Source of the DNA: Pseudomonadota bacterium
GTDB taxonomy: Bacteria > Pseudomonadota > Gammaproteobacteria > Burkholderiales > Burkholderiaceae_C
DNA: 35,109 nucleotides
Assembly: GCA_031119395.1 (NCBI GenBank)
Contig: JAVHYA010000034.1
Span: forward strand, 10,244 to 45,352
Reading direction: 5' to 3'
Both the position numbers and the translations under genes were made by a program. The notes beneath the pieces are model-generated. The model searched no databases and was not told where the DNA came from. It saw nothing but the letters and a program-made list of their open reading frames with translations. Below are positions 4,227-32,002 of the stretch, one piece after another (within the stretch, counting starts at the first letter, position 1; each line of letters starts with the position of its first letter).

Positions 4227-5866
4227 ATGAAGAAGTTCCCCCGCCCGCGGGACCCCAGCCGGCCGCGCCCCGCGTGGAGCGCCGGCGCGACTGGGTGCCC
4301 TCGCTGATCTGGCTGATCCCGATCGTGGCGGCGCTGGTGGGCATCACGCTGGTGGCCAAGATCCTGTGGAACCGCGGGCCGGAAATCGTGCTGAGCTTCA
4401 AGACCGCCGAGGGCCTGGAGGCCGGCAAGACGGCGGTGAAGTACAAGGACGTGCAGATCGGCACCGTGCAGGCGATCCGCCTGTCGCGCGACCGCTCGCA
4501 CGTGCGCGTGCAGGTGCAGCTCAACAAGGAGGCCGCCGACGGCTTCACCGCCAGGGACGCGCGCTACTGGGTCGTCCGCCCGCGCCTGGACACCTCGGGC
4601 ATCTCGGGCCTGACCACGCTGCTGTCGGGCGCCTACATCGGCGCCGACGCCGGCACCGTCGACGAGACCACCGACGAGTTCGAGGGCCTGGAGCTGCCGC
4701 CCATCGTGACGCGCGACCTCAGCGGCCGGCAGTACACGCTGCGGGCGCGGGACATCGGCTCGCTGGACATCGGCTCGCCCGTGTACTTCCGTCGCATCAA
4801 GGTCGGGCAGGTGTCGTCCTTCGACCTCGACGGCGACGGCCGCGGCGTGACGATGCGCATCTTCGTGAATGCGCCCTACGACAAGTTCGTCGGCGCGAAC
4901 ACGCGCTTCTGGCATGCCAGCGGCCTGAACGTGCAGCTGGGGGCCAGCGGGCTCACGGTGCGCACGCAGTCGCTGGCGACCATCCTGCTGGGCGGCGTCG
5001 CCTTCGCGGCGCCCGACGACGTGATGGGCCCGGTGGCGCAGGAGAACACCGCCTATGCGCTGGCCGACGACGAGACCACGGCCATGAAGGAGCCCGACGG
5101 CCCGTCGCAGACCATGCTGATGTACTTCAACCAGTCGCTGCGCGGCCTCGCGCCGGGCGCACCGGTCGACTTCCGCGGCATCGTGCTGGGCGAGGTGAAA
5201 TCCATCGGCGTGCAGTTCGACCGCAGCGAGCGCGAGTTCCTGATGCCGGTGCTCATCACCGTGTATCCCGACCGCCTGCGTCGCGCCGCCGTGGCCAGCG
5301 GGCAGGCACCGGCCGAGTCGAAGTACACGCAGGAAGAGCGCCTTCGCTTCCTCATCGGCAAGGGCCTGCGCGCGCAATTGCGCACGGGCAACCTGCTGAC
5401 CGGCCAGGTCTACGTGGCGCTGGACTTCTTCCCCAAGGAGAAGCCGGTGAAGTTCGACCCGGCCGCCAGCCCCATCCAGCTCCCCACGGTGCAGAACAGC
5501 CTCGACGAGATCCAGTCCCAGGTGCAGGAGATCGCGGCCAAGGTCAACAAGATTCCCTTCGAGGAAATCTCCAACGACCTGCGCAAGACCCTGCGCACGC
5601 TGGACAAGACGCTCACCGCGGCCGAGAGCACCGTCACCCGCATCAACAACGACGTGACGCCCGAGATCGCCGCGGCCATGAAGGACGCGCGCAAGACCAT
5701 CAACACCGCCGATCGCACGCTGGCCGAGGACTCGCCGCTGCAGCAGGACCTGCGCCAGACGCTGCAGGAGCTGACGCGCACCGCCGGGTCGATCCGCGTG
5801 CTGACCGACTACCTCGAGCGCCACCCCGAGTCGCTGCTGCGCGGCAAGCCGGACGACAAACGATGA
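4223..5866 (+). CDS. pqiB: PqiB, three-MCE-domain periplasmic lipid-transport protein
   Basis: This 547-residue protein is close to the length of E. coli PqiB (546). A short cytosolic N-terminus is followed by one membrane anchor (residues ~27-48, LIWLIPIVAALVGITLVAKIL). Three MCE/MlaD repeats follow: around IVLSFKTAEGLEAGKTAVKYKDVQIG, then YTLRARDIGSLDIGSPVYFRRIKVG, then MYFNQSLRGLAPGAPVDFRGIVLG. The last ~110 residues form a long helix with regularly spaced Thr/Leu (heptad-like), the needle coiled coil of PqiB. Structural work on the E. coli protein shows stacked MCE rings forming a tunnel between the two membranes. The ATG at 4223 overlaps the previous stop; the stop overlaps the pqiC ATG. 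Confidence 0.93.
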   Translation: MNEEVPPPAGPQPAAPRVERRRDWVPSLIWLIPIVAALVGITLVAKILWNRGPEIVLSFKTAEGLEAGKTAVKYKDVQIGTVQAIRLSRDRSHVRVQVQLNKEAADGFTARDARYWVVRPRLDTSGISGLTTLLSGAYIGADAGTVDETTDEFEGLELPPIVTRDLSGRQYTLRARDIGSLDIGSPVYFRRIKVGQVSSFDLDGDGRGVTMRIFVNAPYDKFVGANTRFWHASGLNVQLGASGLTVRTQSLATILLGGVAFAAPDDVMGPVAQENTAYALADDETTAMKEPDGPSQTMLMYFNQSLRGLAPGAPVDFRGIVLGEVKSIGVQFDRSEREFLMPVLITVYPDRLRRAAVASGQAPAESKYTQEERLRFLIGKGLRAQLRTGNLLTGQVYVALDFFPKEKPVKFDPAASPIQLPTVQNSLDEIQSQVQEIAAKVNKIPFEEISNDLRKTLRTLDKTLTAAESTVTRINNDVTPEIAAAMKDARKTINTADRTLAEDSPLQQDLRQTLQELTRTAGSIRVLTDYLERHPESLLRGKPDDKR

Positions 5867-9752: not shown

Positions 9753-10823
9753 ATGAAAGCCCTGCGCCTCTACGCCGGCCCCGCCGCCCGCGCCCACATC
9801 GCCGACCACGGCCTGTCGCCCGCCGACGTGCGGGTGATCCCCGGTGCGGCGGGCGGGCCCAAGGGGCTGATCCTCGGTCCGCTCGACCGCTTTCTCTTCG
9901 GCGAGTGGCTGCCGCAGTCGAGCCAGCCGGTGGACTTCGTCGGCGCGTCGATCGGGGCCTGGCGGCTCGCCACGGCCTGCCTGGACGACCCGGCCGAGGC
10001 CTTCGCGCGCTTCGAGCGCGACTACGTGCAGCAGCGCTTCGACACGCCCAGGGGCGGCCGACGGATGGGCGCGGCCGAGGTCAGCGCGAATTTCGCGCGC
10101 AGCCTCGAAGGCTTCTTCGGCGGCCGCATCGGCGAGGTGCTGGCGCACCCGCGCTACCGGCTGCACATCGTGACCGCCCGCGGGCGCCACATCCTGGGCC
10201 GCGAGGGCAGGGCGCGCACGGTGGCCGGCTACCTGGGCGCCTTCGCCAGCAACAGCCTGAGCCGCCGCAGCCTGGGCGCCTGGCTGGAGCGCTGCGTGTT
10301 CTCGACGCCGGGTTCGTCGCTGCCCTTCGACACCCTGGATTTCCGCACACGCCGCGTCGAGCTGGGGGAGGGCAACTTCCAGCCGGCGCTGCAGGCCTCG
10401 TGCTCGATTCCCTTCGTGCTGCAGGCCGTGCACGACATCCCCGGCGGTCCGCCCGGCGCCTACTGGGACGGCGGCATCACCGACTACCACCTGCACCTGA
10501 AGTACAGCAACCCCGACGGCATCGTGCTGTACCCGCACTTCCAGCAGGCGGTGGTGCCCGGCTGGCTCGACAAGGGCCTCAAGTGGCGGCACCGCGCCTC
10601 GCCCTTCCTCGACCGCATGGTGGTCGTCGCGCCCGACCCCGGCTGGGTGCGCACGCTGCCGCGCGGCAAGCTGCCCGACCGCACCGACTTCACCGGCTAT
10701 GCCGGCGACAGCGACGCGCGCATCGCCGCCTGGACCACCGCGGTGGGCGAGGCAGGGCGGCTGGCCGACGAGTGGGCCGAATGGCTGCGCCGGCCCGATC
10801 CGGCGGCGGTGCTGCCCCTGTAG
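9753..10823 (+). CDS. Patatin-like phospholipase family protein
   Basis: This 356-residue protein has the patatin fold signatures: an oxyanion-hole loop GAAGGPKG (residues 31-38), the nucleophile elbow GASIG with Ser66, and the catalytic DGG motif with Asp239 (YWDGGITDYH). These form the Ser-Asp dyad of patatin lipases, which hydrolyse acyl esters of phospholipids or neutral lipids. No signal peptide or membrane helix is visible, so it is probably cytosolic or peripheral. A -10-like cacaat at 9738-9743 lies ten bases before the ATG with no clear Shine-Dalgarno, suggesting a very short leader. It stands alone on the plus strand, convergent with the following membrane-protein gene. The substrate is unknown. 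Confidence 0.88.
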   Translation: MKALRLYAGPAARAHIADHGLSPADVRVIPGAAGGPKGLILGPLDRFLFGEWLPQSSQPVDFVGASIGAWRLATACLDDPAEAFARFERDYVQQRFDTPRGGRRMGAAEVSANFARSLEGFFGGRIGEVLAHPRYRLHIVTARGRHILGREGRARTVAGYLGAFASNSLSRRSLGAWLERCVFSTPGSSLPFDTLDFRTRRVELGEGNFQPALQASCSIPFVLQAVHDIPGGPPGAYWDGGITDYHLHLKYSNPDGIVLYPHFQQAVVPGWLDKGLKWRHRASPFLDRMVVVAPDPGWVRTLPRGKLPDRTDFTGYAGDSDARIAAWTTAVGEAGRLADEWAEWLRRPDPAAVLPL

Positions 10824-12026: not shown

Positions 12027-12902
12027 TCAGTCCGCCAGTTCGTAGTGCGCCTGGCGCTCCTCGAACGCCTTCCACCCGATGACGTCCTTGAACTGCGGCA
12101 TCGTGACCTGACCCGCGGGCAGACCGTCGACGTCGCCCGTGCGGCGCGCGGCGAGGGTCGCGAGGTTGGCCTGCAGCGCATGCACCGTGCTCATCAGCGT
12201 GACGATCGGGTAGGTGGCGAAGGCGGCCACCGATTCGATCTGCTCGCGGCTGAGCCTGGCCATCCACAGGCCCTGCATCAGTTGCAGCGACAGGCGCCGG
12301 CCCGACACCTCGCGCAGCTTGACCAGGTCGTCGTAGCCCTGGAAGGTGCGCGAGATCGGCTGGATCAGGTCGGCGCCCGCCTCGGCGTAGCGGGCCGCGC
12401 GGTCCAGCGCCTCCGACGGGTCGAGCACGTCCGTGCGCGCCACGATCAGGAAGTCCGGGTCCTGCCGCGCATCGACGGCGGCCTGGATGCGCGCCACCGC
12501 CTCCTTGATCGGCACCACCGGCATCACCGAGGCAGCGGCCGGGCAGCGCTTGGGGCTGATCTGGTCCTCGATCGAGATGGCGGCCACGCCGGTCTTCTCG
12601 AACTCGCGCACGGTGCGGGCCACGTTGATGACGTTGCCGTAGCCGGTGTCGGCGTCCGCGAAGATCGGCTTCTTCACGATGTTGGCGATGCGGTTCACCA
12701 CGGCGACGTTCTCGGTCAGCGTGTAGACCTCCATGTCGGGCTGTCCGAGCAGCGAGGCCGAGATGCCGAAGCCGGTGGTGAAGATGCCGTCGAAATCCGA
12801 CTGGTCGACCAGCAGGGCCGAGAGGGCGTCCTGCACGCCGGCCATCCAGAAAGTGGGGCCGTCGGTGATGCGTTGGCGAAGGGTCTGGCGCAAGGTGGGC
12901 AT
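12027..12902 (-). CDS. Isocitrate lyase/PEP mutase-family carbon-carbon lyase
   Basis: This 291-residue TIM-barrel enzyme belongs to the isocitrate lyase/phosphoenolpyruvate mutase superfamily, which includes methylisocitrate lyase, dimethylmalate lyase and oxaloacetate decarboxylase. The Mg-binding DADTGYGN motif covers residues 83-90, SIEDQ 110-114, and IVARTD follows later. The catalytic loop reads KRCPA (118-122): the Cys120 typical of the lyases is present, but the following Gly-His of KRCGH is Pro-Ala. Members cleave 2-hydroxy dicarboxylates or tricarboxylates to pyruvate or glyoxylate plus an acid. It is the last gene of the operon that begins with the aconitase-like pair, 28 bases after the binding-protein gene. 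Its substrate is probably the product of that pair; this is inference. Confidence 0.88.
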   Translation of the reverse strand: MPTLRQTLRQRITDGPTFWMAGVQDALSALLVDQSDFDGIFTTGFGISASLLGQPDMEVYTLTENVAVVNRIANIVKKPIFADADTGYGNVINVARTVREFEKTGVAAISIEDQISPKRCPAAASVMPVVPIKEAVARIQAAVDARQDPDFLIVARTDVLDPSEALDRAARYAEAGADLIQPISRTFQGYDDLVKLREVSGRRLSLQLMQGLWMARLSREQIESVAAFATYPIVTLMSTVHALQANLATLAARRTGDVDGLPAGQVTMPQFKDVIGWKAFEERQAHYELAD

Positions 12903-12930: not shown

Positions 12931-14136
12931 TCAGCGCTTGACGGGGTCGATGTAACCGCCGAGCGCCACGAATTTCTGGCCCTGAAGTTCCATCAGCGCG
13001 ATGCCGGTCTGGCCGCGGCGCGCGTAGGGCCCGGCATTGACGGGCTGGAAGGTGATCTTGGGGCCGATCTTCTGGTCGAAGTCCTTCATGCCGTCCAGTG
13101 CCGCCGCGACCTTCGCGCGCGATGGCTCGGCGCCGGCGCGCTGCAGCGCCTCGACGGTCACGGCCGCCGCCGAATAGCCCATCAGCGCCATCGACGACGG
13201 TGCCGACTTGGGGTACAGCTTGGTGTAGCGCTGGAAGAAGGACTGGATCGCGGGGTTGTCGCCTTCCACGGCGTCGTAGTACGAGGCCACGTACAGCTTG
13301 GACTGGGTCTTGCCGAGGAGTTCGACGAACTTCGGGTCGTTCAGCCCGCCGGCGCCGAACACGGTGGGCTTCCAGCCCAGCTTCTCGGCACCGCGGAAGA
13401 ACTGCACCGCCTCCTGGCCGAGGGCATAGACGATCACCACGTCGGGCTCGGCCTGCTTGAGCTTGAAGACCTGCGAGGTGAGGTCGGTCGCGAAGCGCTC
13501 GAAGCTCTGCGCCTCGACCAGCTTCATGCCGTGCTTGTCCAGCTGCTTGACGGCCACGTCGTAGGCCGGCTTGCCCCAGCCGTCGTTCTGGTAGAGCATG
13601 GCCACCTTCTTGGCCTTGAGCGTGTTGACGGCGTAGTCGATGTACGAGGCCGTCTCGGTCGATTGCGGCGACGGCAGCACGTACAGCAGCTCGCGCGGTG
13701 GCGTGCTGGTGAGGTCCGAGATGCTCAGCGCGCCGATGGTGGGCACGTTCTTGGTCGAGCTGTACTCGTAGGCGCTGATGTTGGTCGCATGACCGATGTT
13801 GCCGACCATGGCCAGCACGTTGTCGCGTTCGACCAGCAGCTTGGCGTTGGCCACCGACTTCGCGGGCTTGAGCTCGTCGTCGTAGGTGATGAGCTTGAGC
13901 TTGCGGCCGTTCACGCCACCCTTTTCGTTGACCATGTCGAAGTAGGTGCGGATGCCTTCGTCGGCGGCCTTGCCCATGTAGGCCAGCGTGCCCGACATCG
14001 GCTGCGAGGAGCCGAGCACGATTTCCTTCTCGAGCACGCCCTCGGCCTTGTTCTCGAAGGCGGCGGCGGGCAGCGCGGCGGCAGCCAGTGCGAGTGCGGC
14101 ACTGGCCAGGACGGTACGGCGATGGATCAGGCTCAT
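12931..14136 (-). CDS. ABC transporter substrate-binding protein, LivK/HAAT type
   Basis: This is a 401-residue periplasmic type I binding protein. The N-terminus MSLIHRRTVLASAALALAAAALPAAA is a signal peptide with a twin-arginine-like RRTVLA motif ahead of a hydrophobic core and AXA cleavage site. The mature protein has the family landmarks IVLGSSQPMSGTLAYMGKA, INEKGG-like VNEKGGVNGRKLKLITYDDE, and MVGNIGHATN in place of the usual VG-x-x-xS segment. The fold binds branched-chain amino acids, amides, aromatic acids or other small carboxylates. It sits directly after the livF-like gene (45 bases) and before the lyase, so it should define what the Liv-type transporter of this operon imports. 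The ligand cannot be read from sequence. Confidence 0.92.
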   Translation of the reverse strand: MSLIHRRTVLASAALALAAAALPAAAFENKAEGVLEKEIVLGSSQPMSGTLAYMGKAADEGIRTYFDMVNEKGGVNGRKLKLITYDDELKPAKSVANAKLLVERDNVLAMVGNIGHATNISAYEYSSTKNVPTIGALSISDLTSTPPRELLYVLPSPQSTETASYIDYAVNTLKAKKVAMLYQNDGWGKPAYDVAVKQLDKHGMKLVEAQSFERFATDLTSQVFKLKQAEPDVVIVYALGQEAVQFFRGAEKLGWKPTVFGAGGLNDPKFVELLGKTQSKLYVASYYDAVEGDNPAIQSFFQRYTKLYPKSAPSSMALMGYSAAAVTVEALQRAGAEPSRAKVAAALDGMKDFDQKIGPKITFQPVNAGPYARRGQTGIALMELQGQKFVALGGYIDPVKR

Positions 14137-14181: not shown

Positions 14182-14913
14182 TCAGCCGCCCAGGTAGGCA
14201 CGGCGCACGTCCTCGTTGCCGGCCAGTTCGGCGGCCGGGCCCTGCATCACGACGCGGCCGGTCTCGATGACGTAGCCCTCGTCGGAGATGTCCAGCGCGA
14301 TGTCCGCGTCCTGTTCGACGACGAGGAGCGTGAGCCGCTCGCGGTCGCGGATGTCGCGCAGCGTGGAGAAGATCGCGTCCTTGAGGATCGGCGCGACGCC
14401 CATCGACGGTTCGTCGAGCATCAGCAGGCGCGGCTTGGCGAGCAGGCCGCGGGCGATGGCGAGCATCTGCTGCTCGCCGCCCGACAGCGTGCCGGCGCGC
14501 GAGCCGATGCGCTCCTTCAACCGCGGGAAGTAGCCCAGCACGTGGTCCATGTGCTCGCGCACCTCGCTGGCCGGGCGGGTGTAGCCGCCGAGCATCAGGT
14601 TCTCGCGCACCGACAGCTGGGCGAACACCATGCGGCCCTGCGGCACGTGCACGATGCCGCGCCGCACCAGCGCCTCGGCCGGCACGTTGGCGATCGACTG
14701 GCCGTCGAACACGGCGGTGCCCTCGCTCACCGCCAGCAGGCCCGAGAGCGCACGCATCAGCGTGGTCTTGCCCGCGCCGTTGGCGCCCAGCACGCACACG
14801 ATGCTGGCCGCGCGCACCTCCAGGCTCACGCCGTGCAGGGCGCGGATCTTGCCGTAGCCGGCACCCAGCCGGTCGACGCGCAGCAGCGCGGGCGTGTCAG
14901 CGACGTTGGCCAC
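14182..14913 (-). CDS. ABC transporter ATP-binding protein, LivF type
   Basis: A 243-residue ATPase of the branched-chain amino acid (HAAT) transporter family. Walker A is GANGAGKT (~43-50), the Q-loop region VPQGRMVFAQLSVRENL, the signature LSGGEQQMLAIAR, Walker B LLMLDEPSMG, and the switch His is replaced in the usual LivF manner by VVEQDADIAL. The GTG start at 14913 overlaps the end of the livG-like gene by 17 bases, and it is followed by the binding-protein gene, giving a tightly packed minus-strand operon. It should pair with the LivG-like subunit to energise import. Confidence 0.92.
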   Translation of the reverse strand: MANVADTPALLRVDRLGAGYGKIRALHGVSLEVRAASIVCVLGANGAGKTTLMRALSGLLAVSEGTAVFDGQSIANVPAEALVRRGIVHVPQGRMVFAQLSVRENLMLGGYTRPASEVREHMDHVLGYFPRLKERIGSRAGTLSGGEQQMLAIARGLLAKPRLLMLDEPSMGVAPILKDAIFSTLRDIRDRERLTLLVVEQDADIALDISDEGYVIETGRVVMQGPAAELAGNEDVRRAYLGG

Positions 14914-15745
14914 TCTTGCCTCCTCCCAGGTATGCCTCGACGACGGCGGGGTGCGCCTCGATCTCGCGCGGCGTGCCCTGCGCGAGGAAGGCGCCGTTGT
15001 GCATCACGGTGATGGTGTCGGAGATCGACATCACCAGCGGCATGCTGTGCTCGATGAGCAGCAGCGTCGCGCCGGTGCTCGCCTGCAATTGCCGCAGCGT
15101 CTGGCCCAGCGCGTCGATCTCCCGGTTGTTCATGCCAGCGGCCGGCTCGTCCAGCAGCATCAGCACCGGCTCGAGCGCCATGGCGCGGGCCAGTTCGACC
15201 AATTTCTGCGTGCCGTAGGGCAGGTCGCGCACCAGCGTATGGGCGTGGGCACCCAGGCGCAGGCCCTCGAGGATGGCCGCGGTGCGTTCGCGCTCGGCGC
15301 GCTCTTCGCGCCGCTGCCGGGGCAGGCGCAGCAGCGCTTCGGCCAGCGTGGCGCGCATCGCCAGCGAGCGGGCGATGAGCACGTTGTCGAACACCGTGAG
15401 CTCCGAGAACAGCTCCAGGTTCTGGAAGGTGCGCGCGATGCCCAGGCGCGAGATCTGGTGCGCCTTCAGCCGCAGCAGGTCGTGCTCGCCGGCGGCATTT
15501 CGCAGCACCATGCGGCCCTGCTGCGGGGTGTAGAAGCGGCTGATGCAGTTGAGCATCGTCGTCTTCCCGGCGCCATTGGGGCCGATCAGCGCATGCACGG
15601 TGCCGGGCATGACGTCGAAGCCGACGTCCTGCACAGCGACGATGCCGCCGAAGCTCATGCGCACGTTGGCGACCGACAGCAGCGGCGCGGCGGCCGGGGC
15701 CGTGCGTGCCGTGGTGCCGGGGCTGGCCTGTTCGAGCACCCGCAT
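14897..15745 (-). CDS. ABC transporter ATP-binding protein, LivG type
   Basis: A 282-residue ATPase with Walker A GPNGAGKTT (residues ~55-63), a LivG-type segment GIARTFQNLELFSELTVFDN, the signature replaced by DLPYGTQKLVELARA as is usual in LivG, Walker B LMLLDEPAAGMN, and IEHSMPLVMSISD carrying the switch His. The first ~28 residues (VLEQASPGTTARTAPAAAP) are an unstructured extension. The ATG at 15745 shares its first base with the stop codon of the livM-like gene (tgatg). It forms the heterodimeric ATPase with the LivF-like protein. Confidence 0.92.
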   Translation of the reverse strand: MRVLEQASPGTTARTAPAAAPLLSVANVRMSFGGIVAVQDVGFDVMPGTVHALIGPNGAGKTTMLNCISRFYTPQQGRMVLRNAAGEHDLLRLKAHQISRLGIARTFQNLELFSELTVFDNVLIARSLAMRATLAEALLRLPRQRREERAERERTAAILEGLRLGAHAHTLVRDLPYGTQKLVELARAMALEPVLMLLDEPAAGMNNREIDALGQTLRQLQASTGATLLLIEHSMPLVMSISDTITVMHNGAFLAQGTPREIEAHPAVVEAYLGGGKSGQRR

Positions 15746-16713
15746 CACAGGCCCTCCTGGCGCGGCGCGTCGGCACCCGGCACCGCCTTGCGCTTGAGCA
15801 GGCTGGCCAGGCCGTCGGGCAGGAACATCAGCGCCAGGATCATCGCCACGCCGTAGAGCGCGCGCTGGAACTGGTCGAAGCCGATGTAGGTGAGGAACTG
15901 CGGCGCGCCGATCACGAAGATCGCGCCCAGCACCGAGCCCATGATCGAGCCCAGGCCGCCCACGATCACCATGGACACGAAGCTGATCGACACCATGATG
16001 TTGAACAGGGACGGGTCGATGAAGCGCACCAGCGGTGCGTACAGCGCGCCCGACAGGCCGGTGTAGAAGGCGCAGACGCCGAAGGCGACGAGCTTCAGCC
16101 CGGTGGTGTTCAGGCCCAGCGCGCGGGCCGCCGTCTCGCTGCCCTTGACGGCCAGGAAGCCGCGGCCGAAGCGGCTTTGCGACAGGTTGCGCGCCAGCCA
16201 CAGCGCGATGCCCAGCACCGCCGCCACGAAGAGGTGGTAGGCACGCTCGTCCAGCGCGATGCCGAACAGCGCCGGCCCCGGCGCGCCCATGCCGTTCTCG
16301 CCGCCGGACAGCTCGCCGCCCGACTTGGCGATCTCCACCGAGATCATCACGAAGCCCAGCGTCGCGATCGCCAGGAACACCTCTTCCAGCCGCAGCACCG
16401 GCAGCGCCAGCACCACGCCGACCACGGTGGCGATCGAGGCGGCGATGACCATGGCCAGCACCAGCGGCACGCCGAAATGGCTGGTCAGGATGGCGGTGCC
16501 ATAGGCGCCGATGCCGAAGAACACGGCCCCCGCCATCGAGATGAGGTTGGTGTAGCCGGTGAGGATGTTGGTGCCGAAGGAGGCGAGGGTGTAGATCAGC
16601 ACCAGCGTGACGATGTACAGCACGTAGCCGCCCGGCAGCAGCGGGGCCAGCACGAACAGCAGCACGAAGACCAGCGGCGCCAGCCAGGGGCGGGAATCGA
16701 GGATTCGGGTCAT
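15745..16713 (-). CDS. ABC transporter permease, LivM type
   Basis: A 322-residue inner-membrane permease of the HAAT family with about nine to ten hydrophobic helices. Family segments include LIYTLASFGTNILTGYTNLISMAGAVFFGIGAYG near the N-terminus, KGSETAARALGLNTTGLKL in the cytosolic coupling loop, and SFVSMVIVGGLGSIMGSVLGA near the C-terminus. The ATG at 16713 follows the livH-like stop by nine bases. Together with the LivH-like subunit it forms the transmembrane channel. Substrate specificity lies mainly in the binding protein. Confidence 0.92.
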   Translation of the reverse strand: MTRILDSRPWLAPLVFVLLFVLAPLLPGGYVLYIVTLVLIYTLASFGTNILTGYTNLISMAGAVFFGIGAYGTAILTSHFGVPLVLAMVIAASIATVVGVVLALPVLRLEEVFLAIATLGFVMISVEIAKSGGELSGGENGMGAPGPALFGIALDERAYHLFVAAVLGIALWLARNLSQSRFGRGFLAVKGSETAARALGLNTTGLKLVAFGVCAFYTGLSGALYAPLVRFIDPSLFNIMVSISFVSMVIVGGLGSIMGSVLGAIFVIGAPQFLTYIGFDQFQRALYGVAMILALMFLPDGLASLLKRKAVPGADAPRQEGL

Positions 16714-16722
16714 GCGGGGCCT

Positions 16723-17586
16723 TCAGACTTTCTTGACCTGCTTGCGGGCCAGCAGGCCGTGGGGCCGCAGGATCAGGATGGCCAGCATCACGATGAAGGG
16801 CACCGCGTCCTTCCAGGCCGAGGACAGGTAGGCGCCGGTGAGGTTGGAGCTCACGCCGATGATCACGCCGCCCAGCAGCGCACCGGGCATGCTGCCGATG
16901 CCGCCGAGCACCGCCGCCGCGAAGGCGAAGTGCAGGGCGTGCTGCATCATCGAGAAGTGCACGAAGGTCAGCGGCGCGATCAGCAGGCCCGCGGCGGCCG
17001 CGATGACGTGCGACAGCGCCCAGGCCAGCGCGTAGATGCGCTTGATCGGGATGCCCATGAGACGGGCGGCCACGGGGTTCTCCATCGTCGCCTGCATCGC
17101 GATGCCCAGGCGCGTGAAGCGGAAGAAGGCGAACAGCACCGCGGCCAGCGTGGCGCACACGCCGACGATGCCCAGGTCGATGCCCGACACCACGACGCCG
17201 CCGATGTCCAGGGGGGCGCTCGGGAAGATGCTCGGCAACTCCTGCGTGTCCTTGCCCCAGATCCAGATGGCCAGGTCGCCGAAGATCAGGAACAGGCCCA
17301 GCGTGCAGATGGCCGAGGACAGCAGCGCCTTGCCGATGAAGCGCCGGATGATGAAGCGCTCGATCAGCATGCCCAGCACCGCGCCGAACACCAGCACCAG
17401 CGGCACGACGGCCCACATGGGCAGGCCCACGCGCAGCAGGGTGCACGCCATGAAGGCGGAGAGCATGGCCGCCTCGCCGTGCGCGAAGTTGAGGATGCCC
17501 GTTGCCTTGAACACCATGACGATGCCCAGGGCGATGAGCCCGTAGATGGCGCCCAGGGCGACGCCGCTGACGATCATCTGCAGCAT
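16723..17586 (-). CDS. ABC transporter permease, LivH type
   Basis: A 287-residue permease with the typical LivH opening MLQMIVSGVALGAIYGLIALGIVMVFKATGILNFAHGE, the coupling-loop region RLGIAMQATMENPVAARLMGI, and FAFAAAVLGGIGSMPGALLGG. It starts seven bases after the stop of the small hydro-lyase subunit. It is therefore embedded in a catabolic operon and not next to amino-acid genes, which argues that the transporter takes up the substrate of the encoded enzymes. Confidence 0.92.
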   Translation of the reverse strand: MLQMIVSGVALGAIYGLIALGIVMVFKATGILNFAHGEAAMLSAFMACTLLRVGLPMWAVVPLVLVFGAVLGMLIERFIIRRFIGKALLSSAICTLGLFLIFGDLAIWIWGKDTQELPSIFPSAPLDIGGVVVSGIDLGIVGVCATLAAVLFAFFRFTRLGIAMQATMENPVAARLMGIPIKRIYALAWALSHVIAAAAGLLIAPLTFVHFSMMQHALHFAFAAAVLGGIGSMPGALLGGVIIGVSSNLTGAYLSSAWKDAVPFIVMLAILILRPHGLLARKQVKKV

Positions 17587-17593
17587 GCGCGCC

Positions 17594-18124
17594 TCAGCTC
17601 GCCGTCGGCGCCGGTTCGCGACCGAGCCGGGCCTTCAGATAGGGGATGAACCCGCCCGCCTCCAGCGTGCCGCGCTCCACCGACGACAACGGCTCGAAAG
17701 GCAGCGTGGTGCCGCGGGTGAGGTTGGAGACGGTGCTCGCCGCCCAGTCCACGCGCAACTCGTCCCAGCGCTCGGTGGCCTCGCGGATGCCGGGGCAGGT
17801 CACGAGCGGGAAGCCCATGCTGATCTCGCCGCGGAAGAAGCCCGGCGAGAACGATTCGGCGATGACGCCGGCCACGCCCAGGTGCCGCATGGCACGCATG
17901 GCGGGGTAGTGCGGGTGCCCGTAGCCGAAGTTGTGGCCGCCGACCAGCAGGTCGCCCTTCTTCACCGACCGGGCGAAGTCGGGGTCGTAGCTGGACATCG
18001 TGACGGCCGCCAGCTCGTGGATGTCGGTGATCTTGATGTTCTTGATGCCGACGATGAGATCGATGTCGAAGTCGTCCTCGGTGAAGATCCAGGCCGCGCG
18101 GCCATGCAGGTTGGGCAGGCTCAT
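17594..18124 (-). CDS. Aconitase-superfamily small (swivel) subunit, LeuD-like, with altered active site
   Basis: This 176-residue protein has the LeuD/aconitase domain-4 fold: HGRAAWIFTEDDFDIDLIVG at the start, then GDLLVGGHNFGYG (residues ~58-69) and GVAGVIAESFSPGFFRGEISMGFPLV. In LeuD and aconitase the NFGCG loop continues Ser-Ser-Arg-Glu-His, supplying the catalytic Ser and a substrate-binding Arg. Here NFGYG is followed by His70-Pro71-His72-Tyr73-Pro74, so that motif is absent although the surrounding fold is intact. The reading frame is unbroken and coupled (atga) to the large subunit, so decay is unlikely. I infer a hydratase/dehydratase of changed chemistry or substrate; leucine biosynthesis is improbable. 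Confidence 0.85.
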   Translation of the reverse strand: MSLPNLHGRAAWIFTEDDFDIDLIVGIKNIKITDIHELAAVTMSSYDPDFARSVKKGDLLVGGHNFGYGHPHYPAMRAMRHLGVAGVIAESFSPGFFRGEISMGFPLVTCPGIREATERWDELRVDWAASTVSNLTRGTTLPFEPLSSVERGTLEAGGFIPYLKARLGREPAPTAS

Positions 18125-19395
18125 GCGGGGCTCCGTTCGGCCAGGTAGGGACGCGGGTCGGCGATGCGGCCCTCCAGGGCCGATGCGGCGACGACCGCGG
18201 CGTTGCAGATGAAGATCTCGGAATCGGCACTGCCCATGCGGCCGGGGGTGTTCAGCGTGCCGGTGGAGACGGCGCGCTGGCCGTCGGTCATGGTGGCGAT
18301 GCGGCCGTAGCAGTAGTCGCAGCTGGACGAGCTGATGAACGCGCCGGCATCGACCAGCGTGGCGATCAGCCCCTCCTTGGCCGCCTGCGACATGATGGCC
18401 TGCGAGGTCGGCACCACGTGCAGCTGGAAGCCCGGCTTGATGCGCCTGCCCTGCAGCACCTGGGCGGCAGCGCGCAGGTCTTCCAGGCGCCCGCTGGCGC
18501 AGGAGCCCAGGTAGCCCGTGTGCACCTCGAGCCCGGCGTACTCGGTGAGGTCGCGGGTGTTCGACGGGCTCGGCGGTGCGACCACGATGGGGGTCAGTTC
18601 GCTCACGTCGATGCTCACTTCGCGGGCATAGACCGCATCCGCGTCCGGGTAGACCGGGTCGAGCTGGATCTTGGCGATGTCGCGGGTGTAGGCCAGCGTC
18701 TTCTCGTCCGGCGCGATCAGCATGGTCGTGGCACCGAGGAACATGGCCTGGCCGCAGATGGTCTGGCGGCCCTCGATGCTCATGGCGTCGATGACCGGAC
18801 CGCACAGCTCCACCACCTTGAAGCGGCAGGATGCGGGCCCCAGCACCCGCACCATGTGGTGGAACACGTCGCGCGCCATCACGCCCGGCTGCAGCGTCCC
18901 GGTCAACTCGATCCGGACGGTGGCCGGAACCGTGAGGGCCATCTTCTCGGTCACGAAGGTCTCGAGCACCCCCTTGCGCGCGCCGAAGGCGAAGGTGCCG
19001 AAGGCGCCCAGCTGGCTCACGTGGCCGTCGAAGTGGACGGCGAAGGCGCCGGGCGTCGCATAGCCCAGTTCGGCCGACACCTGGTGGCCGATGCCCTCGC
19101 GCTCGTGCACCGGCACGCCCTGTGCGGCGCCCCAGGCGCGCGTGACCTTGTGCAGTTCCTCTTCCTTCGGCGCGGTGGCAGGGACCATGTGGTCGATGAA
19201 GAGCACGAAGCGCTCGGGACTCGTGACCTTGTCGACGCCGAACTCCTCGCGCGCTTCCTTGAAGAACACGTCGGTGTAGCCGGGGAAGTCGTAGGCGATC
19301 ACGAAATCGGGCCGCGCCAGGATCTCGTCGCCGGCGTTCACGGCGGGGAGCCCGGCCGCTCGGGCCAGGATCTTTTCGGTCATCGTGTGGGGCAT
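18121..19395 (-). CDS. Aconitase-superfamily large subunit, LeuC-like, Fe-S hydro-lyase
   Basis: A 424-residue catalytic subunit. The three [4Fe-4S] cysteines are present: Cys299 in GSCASGRLEDL, and Cys359 and Cys362 in SSCDYCYG. Asp68-His69 (FIDHMV) matches the Asp-His pair of the family. The usual Asp-Ser-His-Thr motif is Asp123-Gly124-His125-Val126, so the Ser is missing, and the NRNFEGRQG-type segment reads TLNTPGRMG. The start ATG at 19395 has aaggag nine bases upstream and a promoter behind it; an earlier in-frame ATG at 19422 falls inside that promoter. First gene of the eight-gene operon. The family hydrates or dehydrates 2- or 3-hydroxy acids through an Fe-S Lewis acid; the specific acid is unknown. 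Confidence 0.87.
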   Translation of the reverse strand: MPHTMTEKILARAAGLPAVNAGDEILARPDFVIAYDFPGYTDVFFKEAREEFGVDKVTSPERFVLFIDHMVPATAPKEEELHKVTRAWGAAQGVPVHEREGIGHQVSAELGYATPGAFAVHFDGHVSQLGAFGTFAFGARKGVLETFVTEKMALTVPATVRIELTGTLQPGVMARDVFHHMVRVLGPASCRFKVVELCGPVIDAMSIEGRQTICGQAMFLGATTMLIAPDEKTLAYTRDIAKIQLDPVYPDADAVYAREVSIDVSELTPIVVAPPSPSNTRDLTEYAGLEVHTGYLGSCASGRLEDLRAAAQVLQGRRIKPGFQLHVVPTSQAIMSQAAKEGLIATLVDAGAFISSSSCDYCYGRIATMTDGQRAVSTGTLNTPGRMGSADSEIFICNAAVVAASALEGRIADPRPYLAERSPA

Positions 19396-19534: not shown

Positions 19535-20407
19535 ATGAATGAACAACGAGAAGAAGTCGCCTCGGGGACAAATGAATCGCCACAAGGTGGAAATCCCAGG
19601 ACCGGCACGCAGAGCATCGAGCGCGTCGTGAACATGCTCCGCGTGGTGGCGTCACGCGGCCGGCACGGCATGCGCATCGGCGAGGTGGCGGCCACCAGCG
19701 GGCTGCCGCAGTCCACCTGTTTCCGCATGCTGCAGCGGCTGGAAATCGAGGGCCTGGTGGATCGCGACGCGCGCACGCGCAAGTACTTCCTCGGCCCGCT
19801 GCTGCACGAGCTGGGGCTGCTCGCACGCCCGCGGTACCGCCTCAGCGAGCTGTGCGACGGTGCGCTGCACCGGCTGGCCGAGATCACCCAGGACACGATT
19901 TACCTCAGCGAGCGCAGCGGCCTCGAGGCCGTGTGCACCAACCGCGCGCTGGGCGACTACCCGATCAAGGCGCTGCCGCTGGACATCGGCATCCGCCGGC
20001 CGCTGGGCGTGGGCGCCGGCGGGCTGGCGATGCTGTGCGCCATGCCGGACGCCGAGGCCGAGGCGGTGATCCAGGCCAACGGACACCGCTACGAGAAGTT
20101 CGCCTCGTTCAGCGCCGACTTCCTGCGCGAGGCCGTGGCCGCGGGTCGGCGCCAGGGCTATTCCTTCCTCGACAGCGTGGTGACGCCGGGGACGGCGGCG
20201 ATGGGGGTGGCCTTCCCCGTGGACAACCCCGTGGCGGCGATCAGCGTGGCGGCGATCTCGGGCCGGCTGGAGGCCGCGCGGCGCGAGGAGATCGCCCGCG
20301 AGATGCACCATCAGGTGCGGCGCATTTCCGCCGCCATCAGCAACGCGGCGCTGGTGCCTGCCGACGCGCGGGCCGAGCCGGCGGGCCTCGACGCGGACGA
20401 GGACTGA
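19535..20407 (+). CDS. IclR family transcriptional regulator
   Basis: A 290-residue regulator. A winged helix-turn-helix occupies residues ~25-85 (SIERVVNMLRVVASRG...MRIGEVAATSGLPQSTCFRMLQRLEIEGLVDR). The C-terminal ~180 residues are the IclR effector-binding GAF-like domain, including PLGVGAGGLAMLCA and a GYSFLDSVVTPGTAAMGVAFPV stretch. The ATG at 19535 follows aaagggg. IclR proteins typically sense a pathway intermediate and control a divergent catabolic operon, which is the arrangement here. A further 27-residue hydrophilic N-terminal extension is Gln/Glu/Ser-rich. The effector is likely the imported acid or a product of it; inference from position only. Confidence 0.93.
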   Translation: MNEQREEVASGTNESPQGGNPRTGTQSIERVVNMLRVVASRGRHGMRIGEVAATSGLPQSTCFRMLQRLEIEGLVDRDARTRKYFLGPLLHELGLLARPRYRLSELCDGALHRLAEITQDTIYLSERSGLEAVCTNRALGDYPIKALPLDIGIRRPLGVGAGGLAMLCAMPDAEAEAVIQANGHRYEKFASFSADFLREAVAAGRRQGYSFLDSVVTPGTAAMGVAFPVDNPVAAISVAAISGRLEAARREEIAREMHHQVRRISAAISNAALVPADARAEPAGLDADED

Positions 20408-20434: not shown

Positions 20435-21571
20435 TCACATCGAGCTTTCCAGCATCTCGCGGTAGTCGTCGCGGGTCGCCAGCCGCGGATTGGTCTTGTG
20501 GCAGTGGTCGGCCATCGCGCCGTCGATGATCCTGTCGAACATCGCGGGCGTCACGCCGACTTCGGCCAGGCCCTTGGGCAGGCCCAGGCGGGCGTTCATG
20601 TCGCGGATGGCTTCGCCGATGTCGCCCGGCTGGTCCAGGTGCATCGCGCGGGCCATGCGCTGCAGGCGCAGGTCCTTCTGCACCGACTCGGCGCCCGCGT
20701 TGAAGCGCACCACCGCCGGCAGGAAGAGGGCGTTGAGGGTGCCGTGGTGCAGGCGCGGATCGACGCCGCCCAGGCTGTGGCTCAGGCTGTGCACGCAGCC
20801 CAGGCCCTTCTGGAAGGCCATGGCGCCCTGCATGCTGGCGCTCATCAGGTTCAGCCTCGCCTCGCGGTCGCTGCCGTCCTTCGTCGCGCGTTCGATGTGG
20901 CCCCAGGCACGCTCCAGGCCGTCGAGCGCGATGCCGTCGGCCGGCGGGTTGAAGGCGGCTGCCATGAAGGTCTCCATGCAGTGCGCGATGGCGTCCATGC
21001 CGGTGGCGGCCGTGAGCTTGGGGGGCAGGCCCAGCGTGAGTTCCGGGTCGCAGATGGCCGCCTTGGGCATGAGGAACCAGCTGTGGAAGCCCAGCTTGCG
21101 GTGGTCGTCGACGATGACGATGGCGCCGCGGGCCACCTCGCTGCCGGTACCGGCCGTGGTGGGCACGGCGATGAGCGGGGCGACGGCGTCGGTGATCTTC
21201 GGCGAGCCGCCCTCGATGGTGGCGTAGGTCTTGAGCGGCCCGTCGTGCGTGGCCGCGATCGCCACGCCCTTGGCGCAGTCGATGGCCGAGCCGCCGCCGA
21301 CGGCGATCAGCCCGTTGCAGTGACCGCTGCGGTAGAGCGCGACGGCGGCGCGCACGGCCGCCTCGGTGGGATTGGAGGGCGTGTCGTCGAACACGGTGCA
21401 CTCGAGGTCGCCGAGCGCATCGAGCGCCTTCTGCAGGATGCCTGCGGCGCGCACGCCCTTGTCGGTCACGACCAGCGGCCGCGTGATGCCGATGCGCACG
21501 CATTCGTCGGCCAGAAGGCGGACGGCGCCGAAATCGAACTGGATCTGTGTGAGGTATTGGATCAGGGCCAT
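20435..21571 (-). CDS. Iron-containing alcohol dehydrogenase (group III)
   Basis: A 378-residue NAD(P)-dependent dehydrogenase. The nucleotide-binding GGGSAIDCAKG motif and GTGSEVAR loop lie in the N-terminal half. Metal ligands are visible as the Asp and His in GMDAIAHCMETF, a His in HSLSHSLGG and a His in LHHGTLNA. The family interconverts alcohols and aldehydes or semialdehydes (butanol, 1,3-propanediol, 4-hydroxybutyrate). It is convergent with iclR, 27 bases apart, and has its own upstream region, so it is not in the hydro-lyase operon. A link to that pathway, for example reducing or oxidising a semialdehyde product, is possible but rests only on adjacency. Confidence 0.92.
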   Translation of the reverse strand: MALIQYLTQIQFDFGAVRLLADECVRIGITRPLVVTDKGVRAAGILQKALDALGDLECTVFDDTPSNPTEAAVRAAVALYRSGHCNGLIAVGGGSAIDCAKGVAIAATHDGPLKTYATIEGGSPKITDAVAPLIAVPTTAGTGSEVARGAIVIVDDHRKLGFHSWFLMPKAAICDPELTLGLPPKLTAATGMDAIAHCMETFMAAAFNPPADGIALDGLERAWGHIERATKDGSDREARLNLMSASMQGAMAFQKGLGCVHSLSHSLGGVDPRLHHGTLNALFLPAVVRFNAGAESVQKDLRLQRMARAMHLDQPGDIGEAIRDMNARLGLPKGLAEVGVTPAMFDRIIDGAMADHCHKTNPRLATRDDYREMLESSM

Positions 21572-31057: not shown

Positions 31058-32002
31058 TCAGGTCGAAGGACGGCGTGCCGCCAGCAACAGGCTGCCGCCG
31101 ACGGTATTGAACGAGATCGTGGGGGCGCTGAAATCGCTCAGCGGCGCACCCAGGCCGATCTCGCCGCTGCCGTGAAGCACGCATTCCTCGCGGCGCAGCG
31201 CAATCTCGCTGCTCGCACCGATGCGACCGTGGAAGCGCACCCAGGTGCCGTAGGTGCTGATGTCGGTCAGCACGCAGCTGCCGTTGCGCGATTCGAGCCG
31301 CGCGTGCAGGCGTGACACCCGCGGATCGTTGACCACGAACTCCGCCTCGTCGACGCGGCCCAGGTGGATCGGAAGCTGGTCCACGGAGAACATGGAGCGC
31401 ACGTCGAGCCAGGTCAGCTCGATCTGCCCGAACGTCGAATCCGCCCCCTTGGACGGCTGCACCAGCGGCGAAGGCATGGTCAGCAGTTCCGTGACCTCCT
31501 CCTGCCAGTCGATGCGGTAGACGACGGGCATTTCATTGCGCCCGCGGATGTGGATCGGGCCCAGATTGCGATGGCGCACGTCGGCGTTCCCCAGCTGCAC
31601 GACCACCGACTCGGTGGCCCACACCTGGCCCGGGCCTGCCAGGTCGCTCAGGCGCGAGGCGACGTTCACCGCGTCGCCGTAGCTGTCGCCATCGACTTCG
31701 ACCACCTCGCCGCTGGCCACGCCGATCTGCAGCTCCATGCGCAGCGCGGCTGGCCAGTTCTGCAACCGCTTCTGGTGCCCCCGCTGCAATTCGAGGACGG
31801 CCGTGGTCGCTGTCACCCCGTCGGCAAAGATGGCCAGCAGGCCGTCGCCGAGCTTCTTGACCACCCTGCCCTCGTGCACCTCGCAGACATTGCCGATCCA
31901 CTGGGTGAGCCGCGTGACCGTTTCCGTGGCCCGCACGTTGCCCATGACCTCGAACGCCCGCGTGCTTCCGGTCAGGTCCGCAAAGACAACGGTGGTGGCC
32001 AT
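31058..32002 (-). CDS. Class III nucleotide cyclase with C-terminal FHA domain
   Basis: A 314-residue soluble signalling protein. The N-terminal cyclase homology domain (1-150) begins directly with the metal-binding strand VVFADLTGST (Asp9), has KKLGDG with Lys50 and metal Asp53, and DSYGDAVNVASRL with Asp110, Asn113 and Arg117. All residues needed for catalysis are therefore present, and the Lys/Asp pair predicts ATP over GTP. Residues ~210-285 form an FHA domain (IHLGRVDEAEFVVNDPRVSRLHARLESRNGSCVLTD then STYGTWV), which binds phosphothreonine. Forkhead recognition of a Ser/Thr kinase substrate might steer or activate cAMP synthesis; this is inference, since no kinase gene is nearby. It is monocistronic. 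Confidence 0.92.
   Translation of the reverse strand: MATTVVFADLTGSTRAFEVMGNVRATETVTRLTQWIGNVCEVHEGRVVKKLGDGLLAIFADGVTATTAVLELQRGHQKRLQNWPAALRMELQIGVASGEVVEVDGDSYGDAVNVASRLSDLAGPGQVWATESVVVQLGNADVRHRNLGPIHIRGRNEMPVVYRIDWQEEVTELLTMPSPLVQPSKGADSTFGQIELTWLDVRSMFSVDQLPIHLGRVDEAEFVVNDPRVSRLHARLESRNGSCVLTDISTYGTWVRFHGRIGASSEIALRREECVLHGSGEIGLGAPLSDFSAPTISFNTVGGSLLLAARRPST

Follow-up and report, generated by a model that had tools for sequence, protein, structure and literature searches.

A window of 35,109 nucleotides (the whole stretch of DNA analysed here, positions 10,244 to 45,352 of contig JAVHYA010000034.1 in assembly GCA_031119395.1, a Pseudomonadota bacterium of Burkholderiaceae_C) carries on its reverse strand an aconitase-family gene pair in which the Ser-Ser-Arg loop of the family is replaced by His-Pro-His-Tyr-Pro (HPHYP). 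The large subunit (18121..19395, 424 amino acids, LeuC/HacA-like domains 1-3) is the product of the first gene of an operon and has AGGAG 5′ of its ATG. The small subunit (17594..18124, 176 amino acids, LeuD-like domain 4) was assigned by profile match, alignment and model, and its start overlaps the large-subunit stop in the tetranucleotide ATGA. A Pfam Aconitase match (1.4e-63) was found for the large subunit, and the small subunit fell slightly short of the Aconitase_C cut-off (22.4 vs 22.8 bits). Among solved structures, the top sequence matches of the large subunit were the isopropylmalate/citramalate isomerase and homoaconitase large subunits of M. jannaschii, and those of the small subunit were archaeal small subunits. 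The AlphaFold models, made for each subunit singly, have a predicted local distance difference test (pLDDT) value of 91.6 for the small subunit (best PDB match 3vba, E 2e-16) and 80.3 for the large subunit (best PDB match MJ0499, 4kp1, E 2e-42), and their Foldseek matches include 4kp1, 1aco and 3vba. By fold and by three cluster cysteines the pair is a member of the aconitase superfamily.

Residue correspondences were taken from an alignment with pig aconitase for the large subunit, and from alignments with archaeal proteins for its Asp-His pair and for the small subunit. Residue numbers and roles at the aligned positions are those of pig aconitase. On the cluster side, we found Cys299 (18499..18501) as ligand 1 and Cys359-Asp-Tyr-Cys362 (18310..18321) as ligands 2 and 3 by alignment, along with Asp68-His69 (19189..19194), which is the Asp100-His101 pair of aconitase. 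Also kept are His104 (His147 in pig aconitase), Asp123 (Asp165), His125 (His167) and Arg386 (Arg452). The changes in the large subunit are Ser166 to Gly124, which leaves Asp123-Gly124-His125 (19021..19029) in place of the Asp-Ser-His of aconitase and LeuC; Asn258 to Gly215 and Glu262 to Phe219, the two ends of Gly215-Gln-Ala-Met-Phe219 (18739..18753); and Asn446 to Thr380 and Arg447 to Leu381 in Thr380-Leu-Asn-Thr-Pro-Gly-Arg386 (18238..18258), which occupies the place of Asn446-Arg447...Arg452. In the small subunit Ser642 has become His70, Ser643 Pro71 and Arg644 His72, so that His70-Pro-His72-Tyr73-Pro74 (17903..17917) stands in place of Ser642-Ser-Arg644-Glu-His, and residues 69-74 (GHPHYP) are the equivalent of GSSREH in LeuD and aconitase. 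The YLVY stretch of 3vba is NIKI here. All these coordinates are on the reverse strand.

It may be noted that in three small subunits of known structure (3vba, 1v7l and 2pkp) the SSRE stretch aligns gap-free with GHPHYP, and therefore SSRE has not moved to another place in the chain here; a frameshift or misalignment hiding it is ruled out by the same alignment. A preliminary description of this DNA, made from its letters alone, had proposed some of these features, and translation and alignment confirmed the three cysteines and Asp68-His69, placed DGHV (123-126) and TLNTPGRMG where it had put them, and bore out HPHYP at the Ser-Ser-Arg-Glu-His position; the changes at Asn258, Glu262, Asn446 and Arg447 and the kept Arg386 were added by the alignment. 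Judged from the alignments, the cluster side of the active site is kept, with His104, Asp123 and Arg386 included, and the base side is rebuilt together with most carboxylate contacts.

Comparison with LeuCD, homoaconitase and aconitase X

The pair failed the equivalog models of LeuCD (leuC 163.4 of 560.25, LEU2 285.6 of 610.65, leud 88 of 245.85) and of homoaconitase (HacA_Meth 258 of 550; HacB2_Meth 93 and HacB_Meth 90.5 of 230). On broad subfamily models the large subunit came nearly to the cut-off of PRK00402 (369.2 of 385) and the small subunit passed that of LeuD/DmdB narrowly (111.3 of 108.95). Elsewhere in the genome, on contig C125, lies a pair which passed both the leuC model (771.3 of 560.25) and the leuD model (271.9 of 116.25) and which carries DSH, NRNFEGR and GSSREH. 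The window pair could still be read as a divergent LeuCD or homoaconitase that performs the ordinary isomerase reaction, its substitutions having no effect on the chemistry, since its folds and best PDB matches are those of isopropylmalate isomerase and homoaconitase subunits and its broad-model scores lie at or near the cut-offs. The archaeal-type 3-isopropylmalate isomerases and homoaconitases (4kp1, 4kp2, 3vba, 2pkp) have in common with it the two-subunit layout, the fold, the three cysteines, the Asp-His pair and the last Arg of the NRNF..GR stretch. Unlike them, however, it has GHPHY for GSSRE, DGH for DSH, G..F for N..E and TL for NR, and it sits in a catabolic operon whose partners are a lyase and an importer, with no leu genes. 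As the serine base and Arg644 are absent, the scores lie far under every equivalog cut-off and the genome already has LeuCD, we hold this reading to be most improbable. A leucine operon is ruled out by the C125 pair and by the liv, lyase and iclR neighbours. That the pair has no role in leucine biosynthesis, as the preliminary description had it, is thus supported by the missed cut-offs and the separate LeuCD.

Aconitase X (the cis-3-hydroxyproline and phosphomevalonate dehydratases) likewise forms a superfamily branch whose active site is remodelled and whose substrates are new, yet the Pfam AcnX model gave only 18.5 bits against a cut-off of 31.5, and the cluster cysteines of the window pair, unlike those of AcnX, occupy the aconitase positions. 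The serine alkoxide base is the textbook aconitase mechanism. In PMC8184944, serine 642 is given as the general base of aconitase and a homologous serine base, Ser70, is proposed for AtAcnX, which would keep what the window pair has lost. The legend of Fig. 2 in that paper lists 20 active-site residues as completely conserved across aconitases except AcnX; its text has more than 15 of those 20 as identical.

Conservation, distribution and phylogeny of the HPHYP type

Alignments of 45 proteins per subunit were used for the conservation analysis, which leave out the Rhodococcus, Azospirillum and Variovorax PBL-E5 proteins. Invariant in the small subunit are N29, I30, K31 and the whole of N65-P74, and in the large subunit Asp68-His69, D123, G124, H125, G215, F219, C299, C359, C362, T380, L381, N382 and R386. 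Some proteins outside those 45 vary at TLNTPGR (VLNISGR in locus L117, TLNVRGR in L115 and L116). The ratio of nonsynonymous to synonymous substitution (dN/dS) against 5 orthologues is 0.05-0.25 for the large subunit and 0.11-0.38 for the small one. The window pair is under purifying selection and its motif is neither chance nor decay; a pseudogene is ruled out by the dN/dS of 0.05-0.38. The replacement of most substrate-binding residues of aconitase would also suit a catalytically dead or regulatory paralogue, in the manner of an iron regulatory protein. Such a protein, which we consider very improbable, is at odds with the invariance of the cluster ligands, the Asp-His pair and the new loop, with the purifying selection, and with the association with a lyase, an IclR regulator and an importer that is kept across phyla.

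Of 141 loci fetched in all, 80 have a large subunit more than 45% identical to that of the window (range 47-100%), and GHPHYP is present in all 80, several of which overlap one another or the window. They are mostly from Comamonadaceae, with others from Azospirillum, Tistrella and a Rhodococcus plasmid. The most distant is the Rhodococcus opacus plasmid (47% identity in the large subunit), and the Azospirillum plasmids and a second Variovorax type stand at 66-68%. A scan of 54 loci also gave GHPHYP in 54 of 54, partly by construction because HYP, a piece of the loop, was contained in one of its six peptide patterns; that bias is absent from searches that used only a large subunit, either the window's or that of a sister type. 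With the large subunit as query, a match at E 1e-50 or better was found in 36 of 250 genomes of the family, and an orthologue at 79-100% identity in 14 of the 250, own genome included, the next homologue being at 40%. In 250 genomes of the order there was one more orthologue, from another family (G691, 82%), and in 274 genomes of the class, at a threshold of 1e-90, the own genome was the sole match. The HPHYP family is rare at this wide scope. A second Polaromonas HPHYP locus is present on a plasmid of Polaromonas sp. P1-6 (L125, 29060-37572), where the gene for the large subunit is split over two frames and carries no annotation.

The loops in the other 60 loci, with L053 set aside since it holds a GHPHYP small subunit only, are Ser-Ser-Arg in 40 cases, one-step variants in 5 (SGR 3, STR 1, TGR 1), unreadable in 2 and different in 13. 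The different loops are GNPHIQ, the NPH type, in 5 loci (L077 and L113, which are one place, L114, L131 and L132), HNH in 4 (L119, L120, L129 and L130), and GPKMN (L139), GKAHTN (L121), GKTIEG (L092) and GSAME (L107) in one locus each. Trees were made from the large subunit only, a chain that does not contain the HPHYP loop, and near copies of HPHYP rows were left out of all three. In the 53-row tree, the 20 HPHYP rows form one clade with support of 100/100, and L077 is their sister (98/94). The 51-row tree joins 14 HPHYP, 2 NPH and 2 HNH rows in one clade (99/99), and in the 50-row tree one clade of 20 of the 50 rows (100/99) holds 13 HPHYP, 3 HNH, 3 NPH and 1 GPKMN, with no Ser-Ser-Arg row inside it. 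When the HNH or the NPH rows are omitted, HPHYP still groups with the remaining type (Shimodaira-Hasegawa-like approximate likelihood ratio test 97 and 95, by a quick method). On these large-subunit sequences, a larger clade without Ser-Ser-Arg includes the HPHYP type as one of its tips. The proposal of the preliminary description that the pair belongs to a distinct subfamily agrees with the 100/100 clade and with the invariance of HPHYP and DGH in the 45 aligned proteins of each subunit.

As for the rows used, the 51- and 50-row trees omit the far outgroups L057, L061 and L062 and also L104, which has the same large subunit as L111; the 50-row tree further omits L007, L027, L079, L081, L083, L084, L085, L086, L087, L112, L114 and L120. 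L134 and near copies such as L095, L097, L099 and L108 are in no tree, and L125 is absent because of its split frame. On scoring SGR and TGR loops as kept, the 50-row tree requires a total of 3 Ser-Ser-Arg changes. Since L092 and L107 are placed apart from the main clade, Ser-Ser-Arg has been lost or changed more than once; a single event for every loss was dropped as an explanation. We also dropped the idea that loss of Ser166 is always paired with loss of Ser-Ser-Arg, as DTH occurs with NSSR loops (L091, L095-L097, L099); DSH or ESH is found with SAME and GKTIE loops too.

Some sister loci deserve separate mention. L119 and L120, on Roseomonas plasmids, have an HNH-type pair with Glu-Gly-Asn replacing Asp-Ser-His, the neighbours being a flavin reductase and a tripartite-tricarboxylate receptor. 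L139, inside the Ser-Ser-Arg-less clade, has a small subunit whose loop is GPKMNGY, and Asp-Arg-His occurs there in two stretches that resemble the large subunit. L121 (Paraburkholderia sp. 22B1P plasmid, 4995-5537) is a small-subunit-like protein with the GKAHTN loop beside a 3-keto-5-aminohexanoate cleavage protein, with no large subunit found in the fetched stretch.

Gene neighbourhood and partner lyase

The gene order in the window is a divergent iclR followed by the large subunit, small subunit, livH, livM, livG, livF, livK and a lyase. The IclR-family regulator (19535..20407, forward strand) was assigned by profile match and gene neighbourhood. The others are on the reverse strand, namely the LivH-type permease (16723..17586, BPD_transp_2), the LivM-type permease (15745..16713, profile match), the LivG-type and LivF-type ATP-binding proteins (14897..15745 and 14182..14913, both ABC_tran and told apart by gene order), the LivK-type substrate-binding protein (12931..14136, profile match) and a C-C lyase of the isocitrate lyase (ICL)/phosphoenolpyruvate mutase superfamily (12027..12902, profile and PDB matches). 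The lyase has KRCPAA at the catalytic-Cys motif and so keeps KRC; in PrpB and ICL this Cys is the catalytic one. It scored 158.7 of 354.4 bits on the PrpB model, and its PDB matches include methylisocitrate lyase (6.8e-35) and 2,3-dimethylmalate lyase (Dml; 3fa3, 6.3e-30).

In the 54-locus scan the lyase was found in 52 loci, and in L054, one of the two without it, the contig ends inside the small subunit. A divergent iclR was also found in 52, being absent in L049 and in L053, where the contig starts inside the small subunit. The liv set lies between small subunit and lyase in 17 of the 54 (L052 has part of it), and the other 35 loci with a lyase and no liv set there all have a homologue of the TctC receptor of L017 (35 of 35), so that each of the 52 lyase loci has one or the other; the genes of L017 and L027 pass Pfam TctC. 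The Rhodococcus plasmid locus reads iclR, lyase, large subunit, small subunit and a major facilitator superfamily (MFS) transporter, and the lyase accompanies the pair in two Azospirillum plasmids as well. Azospirillum lipoferum, A. ramasamyi and Variovorax PBL-E5 (L115, L116, L127) have genes for a metallo-beta-lactamase (MBL)-fold protein and a flavin adenine dinucleotide (FAD)-binding oxidoreductase ahead of the pair. The A. lipoferum and PBL-E5 versions resemble lactonase and GlcD-like 2-hydroxyacid dehydrogenase, far under the equivalog cut-offs, and in this subtype a lactone or a hydroxy acid may be the entry compound.

Among 70 lyases in HPHYP loci the Cys is kept in all 70, Cys-Pro in 69 and KRCPAA in 64. 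The 18 lyases in other loci have Cys-Gly-His (11), Cys-Gly-Ser (3, two of them one place), Cys-Ala (2) and Cys-Pro (2), and both of these Cys-Pro lyases belong to HNH-type loci. As the lyase motif tracks the HPHYP type, the two enzymes of the module seem to have been remodelled jointly. Lyases also adjoin the sister types in L113 and L114 (NPH) and in L129 and L130 (HNH), and they adjoin Ser-Ser-Arg homologues at 30-37% identity (L056, L082, L084, L088, L090, L091), which fall outside the HPHYP/NPH/HNH/GPKMN clade.

This last observation bears on a second alternative, a DmdAB-like hydratase of dimethylmaleate or another alkylmaleate with a Dml-like lyase next to it, in which HPHYP would tune the substrate only and the base may be water or some other residue. 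A hydratase followed by an ICL-superfamily lyase is the DmdAB/Dml logic of nicotinate fermentation, and the likeness is one of set-up. The near-constant presence of such a lyase, the 3fa3 match and the lyases beside Ser-Ser-Arg homologues all fit. The window lyase, however, has KRCPAA as against KRCGH in the lyases of most Ser-Ser-Arg loci and matches methylisocitrate lyases better than Dml, and an unchanged mechanism is hard to reconcile with a lost serine base; we regard the DmdAB-like reading as unlikely, though it deserves to be kept in mind. Aconitase with isocitrate lyase, and AcnD/PrpF with PrpB in the methylcitrate cycle, follow the same order of a hydro-lyase first and a C-C lyase second. 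They differ in that the genome's own AcnA-like proteins (L061, L062) retain GSSRD and DSH, and in that the window lyase is far under the PrpB cut-off.

Three further observations concern this genome. Contig C67 (L056) holds another aconitase-family pair, with a GSSREG loop, beside its own ICL-family lyase, which is 45% identical to the window lyase; it is a second hydratase-lyase module in the genome. An iron alcohol dehydrogenase (20435-21571, reverse strand; 677.7 of 500 bits on the NCBIfam 4-hydroxybutyrate dehydrogenase model) adjoins the module only in the Xenophilus-like L001, L002 and L064, and hence is probably not part of it. At 31058-32002 (reverse strand) there is a protein with adenylate-cyclase-like and FHA-like stretches.

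Proposed reaction and significance

ICL-superfamily lyases with this Cys (PrpB, ICL, Dml) cleave 2-hydroxy (malate-type) acids to give a carboxylate and a 2-oxo acid. Since the hydro-lyase is regularly paired with such a lyase, it most likely supplies the 2-hydroxy acid for it. We think it rather probable that the pair acts as hydro-lyase in a catabolic module of two steps, in which the serine base is replaced and the lyase cleaves the product. The Liv-type transporter (TctC-type or MFS in relatives) would import an organic acid. The heterodimer, with a predicted [4Fe-4S] cluster on Cys299, Cys359 and Cys362, would add or remove water, and from an unsaturated or isomeric acid would yield a substituted 2-hydroxy (malate-type) acid. 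Cleavage of this acid by the lyase nearby would then give pyruvate or glyoxylate as the 2-oxo acid together with a smaller carboxylic acid, and IclR would regulate the module. The preliminary description had read the pair as a non-leucine enzyme of a distinct subfamily with another substrate; the first two parts are supported, and the third indirectly so, through the conserved partner lyase and the transporters.

As to mechanism, since the hydroxyl-handling half (the free iron, the Asp-His pair and His125) is kept, the Lewis-acid chemistry should not differ. The absence of Arg447 and Arg644 speaks for a substrate whose carboxylates are fewer or positioned differently. It may fairly be inferred from the loop that another base, a His or a Tyr, would be in use. 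His70, at the place of the serine alkoxide, would take the proton and His72 would orient the substrate; as a second choice, His72 may be the base. Tyr73 is less likely, its place being taken by Ile, Val or Pro in the sister types. A His at the Arg644 position is the one residue common to the HPHYP, NPH and HNH loops.

Several points weigh against this reading or against its extension to the sister types. Residues 363-392 of the large-subunit model, which include the TLNTPGR stretch, have pLDDT <50. The order of the types differs between trees, NPH joining HNH in the 51-row tree (80/37) and HNH joining HPHYP in the 50-row tree (84/87), and several branches are long; a long-branch warning stands at the type joins in the 53- and 51-row trees, and in the 50-row tree it names only L092 with L141. 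L052 has no lyase at the locus. The stretches fetched for the sister types L119, L120, L131, L132 and L139, the last three of which have short flanks, yielded no lyase, and none was annotated or found within 4 kb in the HPHYP locus L125, where the neighbours are an FAD-binding oxidoreductase, a fumarylacetoacetate-hydrolase family gene and a tripartite-tricarboxylate receptor. Also, NPH loops have Asn at the Ser642 position, which rules out His70 as a base common to the whole clade.

For the clade as a whole our estimate is evenly balanced. It would be a phylogenetically broad and deep clade that gave up Ser-Ser-Arg and runs [4Fe-4S] hydration or dehydration through a histidine-centred loop (mostly [HN]-x-H) on substrates whose carboxylates are arranged differently, and that thereby opens several hydratase-lyase catabolic pathways not yet described. 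In the open-licence literature searched, as far as the accessible text of its papers extends, we found no description of a serine-less member of the aconitase superfamily, and no HPHYP protein is described there in a title or the start of an abstract; PMC9804861, in its accessible part, concerns the methylcitrate cluster. In public annotation the pair is an 'aconitase family protein' and, for the small subunit, a '3-isopropylmalate dehydratase', and the HNH-type sister small subunit is a 'hypothetical protein'; the latter two names would need correcting. From a natural clade without the serine one would learn how base and substrate are exchanged within the superfamily, a question that the operons make testable. 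As members of the branch lie mostly beside a C-C lyase, the pair probably degrades an organic acid by unusual chemistry, and the operons suggest that soil and plant-associated bacteria have carbon-degradation pathways yet to be assigned.

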